39,249 bases of DNA from positions 1 through 39,249 of IMG/VR virus record IMGVR_UViG_3300033153_008646; one strand, given 5' to 3'. The notes beneath the pieces were generated by a model that ran no database searches, was not told the DNA's origin, and saw only the letters and a list, made by a program, of their open reading frames with translations. A program made the position numbers and the translations under genes. The DNA is from a virus. Positions 19,952 through 24,252 of the stretch are shown piece by piece (position 1 is the stretch's first letter; each line of letters opens with the position of its first letter).

Positions 19952-21679
19952 TTAGCCTCCTATGCTACCAGCTTCTTCAACATTTCCAAATACACGATTT
20001 ATTGCCCACCCCTCTGAAGCTGTTGTATTGGACAGCTTTATGGCAATGAAAGCCCCACGCACCCTTGTTCTTATCCTGGCTTTTCTGCCTGTGCCAGAAA
20101 GAGTACCTGAAGCAAAAGCATCCGCTCCATCCTTTATATCCTCTAAGATCGTTTCTGGTTCGTCGCCAGTGAATATCTCATAAGTCACACCATCAGTATC
20201 ACTGAAAGTTCCATCAGCAGCACCCCCAGCCAATTCAAATGTGAGGGAAGTTAGTTTGCCCTCTCTGTCATTATCCTCTGTAAGATGGAGCATGGGCAAT
20301 ACCACGTAACTTGATATTGCAGTAGTAGTTGTTGCACCAGTACTATCATCCTTAGTTGATTCACTAAACTTCCGTAAGTACCCATCCTTACAACCCAATA
20401 ACATATCCGCGTAATCATTATCATTAGCAGCATAATAGTACAAAGAATAGGCTCCGCAGGCGGATGGATAAATTTCAGGGAAGAATCCTTTCAGTTTCAA
20501 ATCATACCAATAATTAGAATTAGTACCATCTGAAAGTTTTGTGATACAAACAAGAAGTCCATCTCTTTTCCTATCATACCCCATAGTAATCCGATGGGTT
20601 GTAGGATTCACATCCTCATCACCAATCAAATTTGGCAAATCAATAGACGTCAAGTTTTCAACTGCCCGAAAACCAAGTGGAACTTTGTATATACCACCTG
20701 TACCAAAAAAGTACAGATTTCCGTCGCCGTCGAAACACCAAGACTCTGCACCAAACATACCTATAGTCAAATCAACACTGTCTATTGTACCACCGCCAGC
20801 AGGGTCTCCTGTCAATACCCAAATCGTTGTAGCACAACCAAAAATCAGATAATCATCTTTGTATGGAATAAGTGCTCGAACAATATCACCAATTTCCCCA
20901 GCTTCTGTATTACTTCCATTCACAGCAGTGAGTGGGTCTGTGGAGTCATAAATCCAATTCCAAGGGTCTCCAACTTTGGAGCAATACCATTGATGGGGGT
21001 ACACAGGGTCTCCACTTAGCACCAACCTCCCTCGGTATAGACAACCCAAGTATGCCTTATCTGGCATTGTACCATAAGTAGCTTCATCTCCTTGATAGAC
21101 TGTCCAATCATACCACAGAGGAGGACTTGTATCTGTTGCTGTTGGAGTAAAAGCTGAACCAGCACCGTCACCAGTTACTTCATCATCTGTACTGAATGTC
21201 CCAGTAGTTATTCTACCCCATGTATGTTTCTTATCAACATCAGTGTACTCCACCACCATTTCAGCCCCGGTGACTGCTTGGGTTAATGTATCATCAGCAG
21301 CATGGGCGGTATCTAAAGCAGCATGAGTCAACATCCCATTAATGCCTGTTGGGGTGAAAGCCGTTCCATCCCCATTACCTGTTACCTCATTAGTACAATC
21401 AAAAGTACCACTTTTTACAGTACCATACGTCGCGGTCTTTGCAGTGTTCGTAAAATCCACCACCATTGTATTGTCTGTATCTTGAGTGAGTATGTCACCC
21501 TTTGCATGTGGTGTGGTTAATTCAGTATGTGTCAGTTTGATATTAATAAAATCACATACCTTCAGATTTGCCCCGTTTACTATAAATGCCTTTTGGTATG
21601 CCTCAAACATTCTGAGTTGATCCGAGGTATCAATAGCTCCGGCACTTGTATCTAATTCAATCATTTCTCCAGCACTCAT
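19952..21679 (-). CDS. Tail hub/stabilisation protein, main part (P22 gp10-like)
   Basis: 575 residues. The start region (DQLRMFEAYQKAFIVNGANL) looks like the middle of a larger beta-propeller-like tail protein rather than a natural N terminus. After two tandem modules (residues 49-182) come conserved stretches: KAYLGCLYRGRLVLSGD, YPHQWYCSKVGDPWNW, DIVRALIPYKDDYLIFGC, IGMFGAESWCFDGDGNLYFF and KLKGFFPEIYP. A final beta domain ends GWAINRVFGNVEE. Proteins of this type close or stabilise the DNA-filled head at the tail. ATG follows an in-frame TAG of the upstream gene with no base between; GAGGAT in that gene serves as ribosome-binding site. Confidence 0.75.
   Translation of the reverse strand: MSAGEMIELDTSAGAIDTSDQLRMFEAYQKAFIVNGANLKVCDFINIKLTHTELTTPHAKGDILTQDTDNTMVVDFTNTAKTATYGTVKSGTFDCTNEVTGNGDGTAFTPTGINGMLTHAALDTAHAADDTLTQAVTGAEMVVEYTDVDKKHTWGRITTGTFSTDDEVTGDGAGSAFTPTATDTSPPLWYDWTVYQGDEATYGTMPDKAYLGCLYRGRLVLSGDPVYPHQWYCSKVGDPWNWIYDSTDPLTAVNGSNTEAGEIGDIVRALIPYKDDYLIFGCATTIWVLTGDPAGGGTIDSVDLTIGMFGAESWCFDGDGNLYFFGTGGIYKVPLGFRAVENLTSIDLPNLIGDEDVNPTTHRITMGYDRKRDGLLVCITKLSDGTNSNYWYDLKLKGFFPEIYPSACGAYSLYYYAANDNDYADMLLGCKDGYLRKFSESTKDDSTGATTTTAISSYVVLPMLHLTEDNDREGKLTSLTFELAGGAADGTFSDTDGVTYEIFTGDEPETILEDIKDGADAFASGTLSGTGRKARIRTRVRGAFIAIKLSNTTASEGWAINRVFGNVEEAGSIGG
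21134..21535 (-). repeat. Two tandem ~66-residue modules in the hub protein
   Basis: Residues 49-116 and 117-182 of the hub protein align: LTHTELTTPHAKGDILTQ with LTHAALDTAHAADDTLTQ, MVVDFTNTAKTATYG with MVVEYTDVDKKHTWG, and GTFDCTNEVTGNGDGTAFTP with GTFSTDDEVTGDGAGSAFTP. The protein copies are about half identical, so the duplication is not recent. Each looks like a small beta module inserted in a propeller. Confidence 0.85.
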
Positions 21680-22390
21680 CTATATATCCTCAAACCAAAT
21701 TTCGTTATTACCAGATGCAACCAGACGTTTATAATGAACATCGGTACTCATGTGTATCAACACTGATCCCAAATCACAACTACCCCCACTTACTGCTTCA
21801 CAAGTTCCTGCCAAAGCACTGTATGTGATTAACTCCAAATCTCCTGAACCACTGCTTGATCCAGCACAGTCACCAGATAGTTCAGAGTAGGTAGCAGCTG
21901 CTTCCCATAGAGCATATATACCATACGGCCATGTTGTTTCCGTGCTGGCGGGCCAAGGATCAGTTAAGCCCCCAATATTAGTTTTAAGACTTCTTCTGTA
22001 ATCCGTGCGTTCTTGACCACAAAGAGTTTCCGTAGCAGTATCATCAACCTGAATAGCAATCCAATAAATAGTTTCTGCGGATATTGCCCAATCAACAGCA
22101 ACTTTTTTCCATCCTGCATCCGTACCTTTAGCATTAGTATTTGACCATTCCAGGCGATTTTCAGGTTTGTCATTCCCGACATTATGACTATAAAGACCAA
22201 CTTCAAAATTAGTTTCTTCAGTTGCGTTATCACACCACCAACCTATTTCCGTGATTTTATTAGTACCTGCCGGGGATGTGACTTTTATCGAATGACATTG
22301 ATTGTCAACAGTGGAGTTATAAGAAGCTATCGGATCATCTACAGGAGATGCAGTTATCAAACCCTGATTTATTCCCCATTCAAGTGCCAT
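21680..22390 (-). CDS. Tail-associated beta-sandwich protein ending in a hub segment
   Basis: 236 residues. The first ~150 form a beta-sandwich (ITEIGWWCDNATEETNFEVG, TIYWIAIQVDDTATETLCG), probably a carbohydrate- or surface-binding module. Short repeats of the YSELSGDCAGSSSGSGDL type follow. The last 20 residues (HYKRLVASGNNEIWFEDI) fit the hub protein that follows. The frame is shared with the 575-aa hub gene, and only one TAG separates them, so readthrough would yield a fused protein of about 812 residues. It could equally be translated separately by reinitiation. Confidence 0.65.
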   Translation of the reverse strand: MALEWGINQGLITASPVDDPIASYNSTVDNQCHSIKVTSPAGTNKITEIGWWCDNATEETNFEVGLYSHNVGNDKPENRLEWSNTNAKGTDAGWKKVAVDWAISAETIYWIAIQVDDTATETLCGQERTDYRRSLKTNIGGLTDPWPASTETTWPYGIYALWEAAATYSELSGDCAGSSSGSGDLELITYSALAGTCEAVSGGSCDLGSVLIHMSTDVHYKRLVASGNNEIWFEDI

Positions 22391-22398
22391 ATTAACCC

Positions 22399-22782
22399 CT
22401 ATGTTAATGTCACGTTAAATTCACCAGCAGAAAATCGTGGTGTTTTTCCATCTGTTATTTCCCTTGGTGTATCAAGAACAAAAGATAGTAAAAGATTACC
22501 ATCAGTGGCAGCATCAAATAGTCCAGCATGAGTTATTGTACCCCAATCCCCTGTAGCTTCAGGAAATGTCACAGCAGCATCATTATCAACTTCATTGCCA
22601 GTTCTTGACCATGCTGCACAAGCTACTCTTGCATAACCGTTCCCAACAGGTTCAGCTAAACCAGCAGCATCATCTCCAGGGTCCGCAGTGGACAGTCCAA
22701 CATACATAGTAGGAGCAGCGTATGATCCTATGTCGAACAAATGATCTAAAAGTTCATACTCCAAAAAATCAGCAAAGCTCAT
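22399..22782 (-). CDS. Conserved-type phage tail-associated protein (127 aa)
   Basis: 127 residues; GGAGG about ten bases before ATG. The layout is common to a family of phage structural proteins: helix FADFLEYELLDHLFD, then PTMYVGLSTADPGDD, GNGYARVACA, AVTFPEATGDWGTITHAGLF, GNLLLSF and a C-terminal AGEFNVTLT. The role is not established, but such proteins occur with tail fibres and hubs. It ends with TAG followed within 30 bases by another stop. It lies inside the interrupted hub region. Confidence 0.65.
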   Translation of the reverse strand: MSFADFLEYELLDHLFDIGSYAAPTMYVGLSTADPGDDAAGLAEPVGNGYARVACAAWSRTGNEVDNDAAVTFPEATGDWGTITHAGLFDAATDGNLLLSFVLDTPREITDGKTPRFSAGEFNVTLT

Positions 22783-22784
22783 AA

Positions 22785-23129
22785 TTAAATATCCTCCAGC
22801 CAGATACGATCATTAGCAGCAGCTAACAATTTTCTTACTGTTATCATATTGTTTTGACCTGTTGGTGTTCCAGTCATTTCCCCTTCTTCACCCTCCACAT
22901 CAGTAAGAGACATGCCTGAGACTAATGGAGGATGAAAATCGATTGAGTCAAATGTCCACACATCCCCAGTAGTTGTGCCAAACTCATTTATGGCATCAAC
23001 CCGCCAGCTATACCCCTGATTATATAAAAGAGGTCCAAAATTTATATTCCAAAATAAATCAGAAATACCGGAGGCCACTAAGGCCATCCCCTCACCACCA
23101 TCCACATAAACATCGTATGTCTCTGCCAT
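22785..23129 (-). CDS. Second half of a split fibronectin-III domain plus hub segment
   Basis: 114 residues from ATG 23129-23127, which overlaps the previous stop (TAATG) with GGGAGG eight bases upstream; an ATG at 23144 is also in frame. Residues 1-60 (AETYDVYVDGG ... YSWRVDAINEFGTTTGDVWTFD) are the C-terminal strands of a fibronectin-III domain. Its first strands end the preceding gene. The protein ends with TVRKLLAAANDRIWLEDI, similar to the end of the 236-aa protein. The GAGGAT encoding ED serves as ribosome-binding site for the next gene. Confidence 0.65.
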   Translation of the reverse strand: MAETYDVYVDGGEGMALVASGISDLFWNINFGPLLYNQGYSWRVDAINEFGTTTGDVWTFDSIDFHPPLVSGMSLTDVEGEEGEMTGTPTGQNNMITVRKLLAAANDRIWLEDI

Positions 23130-24019
23130 TATCCAGCCTCCCATGTAAGTTGCTCAAGGCCAGTTATTATATCTGAATCTGTGTTTGAGGGACCAGGATT
23201 AGTTGGTTTCGCAGGTCTTGCATCAAAATGCCAGGTATCCCCAGTTGTTGTACCCGCATCATTAGTAGCATCAACACGCCAGTATATCACTTGCTCAAGA
23301 GGCACATCTGTGTAATCTACAGTAAGGGAAGTTTCAGCCTGAGCACTCGATATGAGAGACAAGTCACCTACCGGACCCATATACACATTGTAAGTATCTG
23401 CACCACCACCATCATCCCAGGACAATCCAAGAGCAGAGAAGTCTTCTTCTGTGGCTCCATTTGCAGGTGATGGGTTTGTGGGCTTGGAAGGTACGGCATC
23501 TTCCCCCCATTCTTGAAACATAAAATCTGATATATTCCCTTCTGAAAATACCTGCCAAGTTTGAAGTTCTGGAAATTCTAAATCTCCAATATACTTTAAT
23601 GCAAGACCTCTGGTATATGTGGACTCCGCTATGTCTATTCTCCATAAAACGGTCTTTTCACCAGCAACTCCATTGGGGGCAGTTAAAACCAAAGCATACT
23701 CAGTACCAATTTGTAAAACAGCAGTATTATCAAGTGTTATTTGTCTGTATGAACCAGCAGTGTCCGTTGTAAGAGTATCTCCATTGGTATTCCCAGAAGC
23801 TAAAGATGCGCCTGTTGGATGGTGATCTCCATCAACAGCATAAATATCTACATTTATAATCCCAGGTGTAGATACCCGAAAGAGCTTTAACTTCACTATT
23901 GTAACTGTGTGAGTATTCTCTGGGGTAAATGTCTGGGCTAATGCATCATCAGCATCTCCCCAAGGAATACCACCTCCACCTGTATCCCCAGTAACATAAT
24001 ATTCATATATGCTTGCCAT
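23129..24019 (-). CDS. Beta-sandwich and fibronectin-III tail protein (second FnIII cut)
   Basis: 296 residues. Residues 1-172 form a beta-sandwich of the kind found in secreted binding modules (LAQTFTPENTHTVTIVKLKL, VDIYAVDGDHHPTG, YALVLTAPNG, ending FQEWGE). Residues 177-267 are a complete fibronectin-III domain (SKPTNPSPANG ... LGLSWDDGGGADTYNVYMG ... YWRVDATNDAGTTTGDTWHF). A second begins at 269 (AKPTNPGPSNT) and stops after LTWEAG; its remainder is the next ORF. The ATG overlaps the stop of the hub N-terminal ORF (TAATG). Surface adhesion is the likely role. Confidence 0.7.
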   Translation of the reverse strand: MASIYEYYVTGDTGGGGIPWGDADDALAQTFTPENTHTVTIVKLKLFRVSTPGIINVDIYAVDGDHHPTGASLASGNTNGDTLTTDTAGSYRQITLDNTAVLQIGTEYALVLTAPNGVAGEKTVLWRIDIAESTYTRGLALKYIGDLEFPELQTWQVFSEGNISDFMFQEWGEDAVPSKPTNPSPANGATEEDFSALGLSWDDGGGADTYNVYMGPVGDLSLISSAQAETSLTVDYTDVPLEQVIYWRVDATNDAGTTTGDTWHFDARPAKPTNPGPSNTDSDIITGLEQLTWEAG

Positions 24020-24252
24020 TATACCACCGTGCTAACTGTACAGATTGCTACTACTGGTTGCTCTGCTGCACCTATCAAAGTACCACTACCCCAATGGGTG
24101 ACACCTGGGCGTTGGGATATTCTAATCCTCTTACCCAATGTTCCACGAACCCTGACGTTACGGATATGGCCACTGGTTAAAGGATCAGATTTATCCACGG
24201 GCATACCTTCACTAAACCCTTTTACTGGCAAATTGAATCCTGCATTAGCCAT
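24019..24252 (-). CDS. N-terminal segment of the tail hub protein (77 aa)
   Basis: 77 residues with GAAGGA upstream. The sequence (FNLPVKGFSEGMPVDKSDPL, NVRVRGTLGKRIRISQRPGV, then LIGAAEQPVVAIC) is the expected beginning of a large phage tail hub/stabilisation protein: a conserved 'NVRP..' strand, a 'GQRPG' turn and the first propeller strand. It stops abruptly at STVV. The remainder of such a protein appears 2.3 kb downstream as the 575-aa ORF, with binding modules in between. It is preceded by a strong terminator-like hairpin. Confidence 0.6.
   Translation of the reverse strand: MANAGFNLPVKGFSEGMPVDKSDPLTSGHIRNVRVRGTLGKRIRISQRPGVTHWGSGTLIGAAEQPVVAICTVSTVV

Follow-up and report, generated by a model that had tools for sequence, protein, structure and literature searches.

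In a 39,249-nucleotide stretch of viral DNA (IMG/VR record IMGVR_UViG_3300033153_008646, positions 1 to 39,249; hereafter the window), what reads as a single tail gene is spread over several abutting open reading frames (ORFs) with other coding sequence between them. Such an arrangement raises the question of whether the gene has been damaged in this phage, is decoded as one long protein, or specifies separate polypeptides that must somehow come together. The reading favoured here, with a probability of roughly 0.6, is that a split podophage nozzle is reassembled by beta-strand complementation, displaying exchangeable adhesins.

Organization of the locus

Six minus-strand ORFs span positions 24252-19952 (Table 1), as a first-pass annotation of the DNA had placed them; its description of the junctions also stands, with TAATG at 24019, TAATG at 23129, and TAG-ATG in the same frame at 21680, all read directly. 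The codons for the strand at the end of the 77-aa protein (N77) also provide the gene that follows with a ribosome-binding site of GGTGG type. The second chain of module 1 is 119 aa long from the start chosen by the ORF tool (23144) and 114 aa long from the overlapping ATG at 23129. The same annotation had described binding modules, including a split FnIII domain, between N77 and the 575-aa protein (H575), and these are indeed present. The second FnIII domain is truly divided between two ORFs, one ending ...LEQLTWEAG before its stop and the other beginning MAETYDVYVDG..., and at least seven further loci (L032, L046, L116, L164, L089, L090 and L073) divide it at the same loop, the halves being in frame in some and overlapping or out of frame in others. 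Overlooked at that stage was a feature shared by the 119-aa and 236-aa proteins: the C-terminus of each is a copy of the first hairpin of the nozzle (RKLLAAANDRIWLEDI, YKRLVASGNNEIWFEDI).

Table 1. Features of the split nozzle locus (positions in the window)
Feature	Position	Strand	Description
N77, 77 aa	24019..24252	-	Predicted N-terminal nozzle piece; its end is putative strand a of the first blade (PVVAICTVSTVV)
Strand a of blade 1	24022..24057	-	Last 12 residues of N77
Module 1, first chain, 296 aa	23129..24019	-	Beta-sandwich, FnIII and first half of a second FnIII
Module 1, second chain	22785..23129	-	Rest of split FnIII, linker, A-type hairpin tag
A-type hairpin tag (NNMITVRKLLAAANDRIWLEDI)	22788..22853	-	Tag HMM 35.6 bits, 0 residues from C-terminus
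T127, 127 aa	22399..22782	-	Homologue of podophage GP4 fiber I (gp80), without tag
Module 2 (S236), 236 aa	21680..22390	-	Putative beta-sandwich; C-terminus is the nozzle's own hairpin
G-type hairpin on S236	21683..21745	-	Nozzle b-c hairpin, displaced; tag HMM 34.3 bits
H575, 575 aa	19952..21679	-	Predicted nozzle from blade-1 strand d on, without own hairpin

Among the cassette and nozzle ORFs of the window, profile searches gave no strong family match other than that of T127, the beta-sandwich of the first module-1 chain matching DUF4082 weakly. T127 clearly belongs to the GP4 fiber I gp80 family, as its matches to Pfam PF23140 (E 1.2e-35; 123.1 bits against a curated cut-off of 27) and to chain E of PDB 8jou (4.6e-05) show. 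Within H575, residues 50-150 approximately hold a tandem duplication of a stretch of about 70 aa (LTHTELTTPHAKGDILTQ... / LTHAALDTAHAADDTLTQ...); double profile matches at this place occur in several relatives as well (for example L031, L037, L038, L044 and L158), and L100 carries an extra copy near its C-terminus. Since some structural matches bear the annotation 'FCCH domain', the repeat could be a beta domain that moves about within the nozzle.

Elsewhere in the window, in a search for an adaptor or tail tubular A gene nearby, a 255-aa ORF (26178-25411) weakly matched PHROG 6013, 'tail protein' (E 0.0044). A 999-aa ORF (19113-16114) matches a tail fiber PHROG (E 2.9e-09) and, together with the 273-aa ORF that precedes it, lies downstream of the nozzle in many relatives too. 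The weak match of a 1126-aa minus-strand ORF (15232-11852) to a virion RNA polymerase PHROG (E 0.0033) is probably not meaningful.

An ancestral split in a nozzle gene

Searches of IMG/VR with H575 and N77, after removal of duplicates, yielded 91 loci that hold both parts, a set that retains a few near-identical pairs (L001/L010 and L002/L003, for instance), and a later search with divergent members added about 20 more. The gene order and splits of the window recur throughout. All 91 scored loci, and every locus of the later search that contains N77, encode it as an ORF of its own ahead of the nozzle, about 110 relatives in all, and its stop codon falls 0-4 aa past the end of the profile (..VVAICTVSSV) in 90 of the 91, the exception being the truncated N77-like ORF of L018. 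Even L012, which has no module at all between N77 and the nozzle, encodes the two as separate ORFs. Therefore the split is ancestral, and not, as the first-pass annotation had supposed, a gene freshly broken in this phage. Chance and assembly error are ruled out by the recurrence of the arrangement across many contigs, and a pseudogene is ruled out by the same recurrence together with the signs of purifying selection on the hairpin tags described below. The sole match among 84,980 species genomes was a contig (WTBT01000015.1) in a metagenome-assembled genome of Candidatus Aegiribacteria, which may be a hint of the host or a phage contig binned there by chance.

The suggestion that the 77-aa and 575-aa ORFs are the start and the remainder of one gp10-like protein holds up on structural grounds. 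Models were built on two relatives, L134 and L076, and the assignment of H575 as a nozzle rests on its homologues and on Foldseek searches with these models. For L134, a chain of N77, module 1, tag, hairpin and nozzle was modelled from 29 alignment rows with stops read as residues; the result was good in the nozzle part only, with module 1 left unmodelled and most of N77 at pLDDT 45-61. Its top 19 PDB matches (E from 2.6e-14 to 6.8e-08) were nonetheless the crAss001 muzzle and podophage nozzle or tail chains, the best including SU10, cyanophage A4, Pa223, E1004, LME-1, P22 gp10, Kp9, T7 and GP4. It was replaced by a model of L076 (N77, module 2, hairpin and nozzle; 75 rows) with mean pLDDT 85.9 and pTM 0.77, in which N77, modelled together with the nozzle, reaches pLDDT of about 86-92 over its first 70 residues; this model treats the pieces as one chain through a stop and may join them artificially. 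Module rows were omitted from long alignments, as MAFFT gave them no placement. The L076 model matched the GP4 portal-tail chain best (E 6e-09), as well as the LME-1 and Carin1 tails, and it resembles many uncultured single-chain phage proteins, BFVD A0A1B1IVA9 among them.

Thus N77 and H575 are, as modelled, two parts of one podophage nozzle protein of the P22 gp10/T7 gp12 kind, with a predicted beta-propeller fold. The order of strands in the L076 model, with strand a in N77 (66-76), a hairpin (252-261, 264-270) and strand d (273-276), suggests how the strands of blade 1 would pair. In sequence comparison, tblastn of H575 and two relatives' nozzles found zero matches in 50,697 phage records, a profile of the nozzle alignment found zero among PDB sequences, and whole-nozzle local profile alignment gave weak matches. 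Eight of 12 matched PHROG 376, 'tail protein' (best E 9.6e-05), which was unmatched in the one genome examined.

Coupled junctions

Counted from the end of the N77 stop codon, the next start lies at -1, 0 or +1 in 67 of 94 junctions, and an SD-like sequence upstream of that start, like a CGGTGG-type motif in the final codons of N77, is found in about half of the loci. The frame of the next gene is +2 in 41 junctions, +1 in 35 and 0 in 18, and TAA, TAG and TGA are all used as the stop. Since all three stops end genes at this junction, there is no need to invoke an alternative genetic code, and since the reading frames of the pieces differ among relatives, frameshifting or read-through as a programme common to the family is excluded. 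Termination-reinitiation giving separate chains fits these junctions, and the pieces would accordingly be separate chains in the virion.

Stop read-through as a general mechanism, raised in the first-pass annotation, is thereby set aside, and its picture of one giant mosaic protein survives in part: in 14 relatives the nozzle and the last module form one protein, of which N77 is never a part.

Exchangeable modules with a C-terminal hairpin

Most cassette proteins share a C-terminal hairpin of about 22 aa that duplicates the first hairpin of the nozzle. A 22-position tag profile built from seeds matched strongly in just two settings, the C-termini of modules and the vicinity of the nozzle N-terminus, and each of the 103 module tags with a score above 12 bits lies 0-6 aa from the end of its protein. 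The loci fall into three classes. In class I (52 loci), N77 is followed by a tagged module and by a nozzle with its own hairpin. Class II (25 loci, including the window) has N77, a tagged module 1, usually T127, a tagged module 2 and a nozzle without its own hairpin; two tags were scored in 22 of these loci, one in two and none in one, leaving a tagged module ahead of the nozzle in 24 of 25. Class III (14 loci) has N77 followed by a fused module-hairpin-nozzle, with a further tagged module in three. T127 lies between N77 and the nozzle in 21 of the 25 class II loci as against 3 of the 66 others, a gp80 homologue inside the split thus pairing almost one-to-one with a nozzle that has no first hairpin of its own.

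Position 13 of the tag model divides the hairpins further. Module-1 tags have A there (43 of 51 in class I, 19 of 22 in class II), and nozzle hairpins (42 of 51) and class II module-2 tags (19 of 22) have G, a division into what are, by sequence, two old lineages, the A-type on the first module and the G-type of the nozzle itself. The hairpin of S236 has G at this position, like nozzle hairpins. Therefore S236 ends in the nozzle's own hairpin, the 119-aa protein in an old second copy, and H575 is left without one. Tag codons in close pairs give a pN/pS of about 0.21, from pairs that are not independent and with pS near saturation, and the tag therefore appears to be maintained by purifying selection.

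The module bodies behave differently from what flanks them. Between L033 and L034 the N77 DNA is 100% identical (local match) and the nozzle DNA 91%, while the module bodies are unrelated, identity ending just past the module start codon and restarting at the tag; conversely, L025 and L028 have modules that are 98% identical and N77s at 30% (local match), with the switch at the junction. Other pairs show the same pattern: close relatives swap whole module bodies, with N77, hairpin and nozzle kept. Domain types among the modules include DUF4082, fn3, lectin-like, LamG/concanavalin, pentaxin and beta-propeller; they are adhesin-like, with carbohydrate- or protein-binding folds that suggest a role in host binding. 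The only cultured-phage match seen for any module is that of L076 module 2 (residues 107-242 of the read-through chain) to VlrC of Stenotrophomonas phage DLP6 (28.7% identity, E 2e-3). Hairpin-tagged modules also occur upstream of N77, outside the split, in L012 (8787-9662) and L018 (25-297), which suggests that the tag works independently of gene position.

Proposed reassembly and display, and competing explanations

On the proposed mechanism, the split in the podophage nozzle gene is an old one that would fall in the loop joining strand a of the first propeller blade to its b-c hairpin, and an exchangeable cassette of adhesin-like genes now sits between the parts. Coupled stop-start translation of one message would yield separate polypeptides, with N77 supplying strand a, the last module (here S236) or the nozzle itself supplying the hairpin, and H575 supplying strand d and the remainder, the pieces being joined by beta-strand complementation. 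Because their C-terminus is a copy of the nozzle hairpin, the cassette proteins would be shown on the nozzle, the hairpin probably plugging each into the tail. Least certain is where the A-type hairpin of module 1 would dock: the class I nozzle keeps its own hairpin, and the A-type tag therefore has no obvious vacant slot; it might dock on some of the subunits, or elsewhere. Generalized to a propeller of two or more separately translated chains, into which any hairpin-ended adhesin could be plugged by strand complementation so that one virion could bear several different modules that are rapidly swapped, the idea falls somewhat short of an even chance.

The split nozzle could be real and the module hairpins no more than recombination or duplication scars, nozzle sequence from the flanks having been copied along with the inserted genes and having no docking role. 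Their position exactly at the border of swapped and shared DNA is where a crossover anchor would be expected, but scars would hardly remain as two distinct lineages across nozzles of 36-71% identity, show a pN/pS of 0.21, keep strictly to the C-termini of unrelated folds, or occur on modules upstream of N77, and this explanation is judged unlikely. Somewhat less likely still is that N77 and the modules, as virion proteins in their own right, are simply encoded beside the nozzle gene and belong to no common fold. N77 is always a separate ORF, and sequence searches found no relative in which N77 and nozzle form a single chain; on the other hand, the L076 model, built from the deeper alignment, folds N77 confidently with the nozzle, one module is covalently fused to the nozzle hairpin in 14 relatives, and single-chain nozzles have, by eye, their motifs arranged in the same order (NxVR..QRPG, strand a, hairpin, GTMTEL), although they align only weakly with the N77-plus-hairpin profile (P 0.019; 3 of 60 column shuffles equally good). 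The first-pass annotation had asked whether the two parts might always be unrelated, separate proteins; separate they always are, but not unrelated.

A single large protein made by read-through of stops or programmed frameshifting is the least probable of these alternatives. It gains some appeal from the window, where a single in-frame TAG divides S236 from H575, and from L077, L153, L156 and L179 (the last being the Candidatus Aegiribacteria contig), which have an in-frame stop at the equivalent point; yet frames and stop codons differ across relatives, the halves of the split FnIII share a frame in some loci but not in others, and each downstream gene begins with a start of its own on or close to the stop. 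Reassembly of separate chains by strand complementation thus remains the preferred reading. If true, it would be a new way to vary host binding with the nozzle itself left untouched, a natural protein-complementation tag, and a rule for finding, in uncultured phages, adhesins that sequence search misses, namely by a C-terminal hairpin beside a split nozzle.

Relationship to known systems

In the open-access literature, within incomplete coverage, no account was found of a split nozzle whose modules carry tags. The likeness to the podophage nozzles of P22 (gp10), T7 (gp12), GP4, SU10 and Pa223 is one of fold, seen by Foldseek of two relatives' models; those known are single-chain, whereas all 91 scored loci here have a separate ORF for the N-terminal part, the first hairpin is sometimes encoded on yet another protein, and adhesin genes occupy the break. 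T127 belongs with GP4 fiber I (gp80, PF23140), but it is placed between tagged modules inside a split nozzle gene. Donor-strand complementation is known from chaperone-usher pili, and the likeness lies in a strand or hairpin of one chain being proposed to complete the beta fold of another; there is no homology, and here the donor would be a copy of the acceptor's own hairpin, carrying a swappable adhesin. Modular phage receptor-binding proteins likewise combine exchangeable binding modules with a conserved attachment element, but their usual anchors are N-terminal domains, whereas the candidate anchor here is C-terminal and a copy of the nozzle's hairpin.
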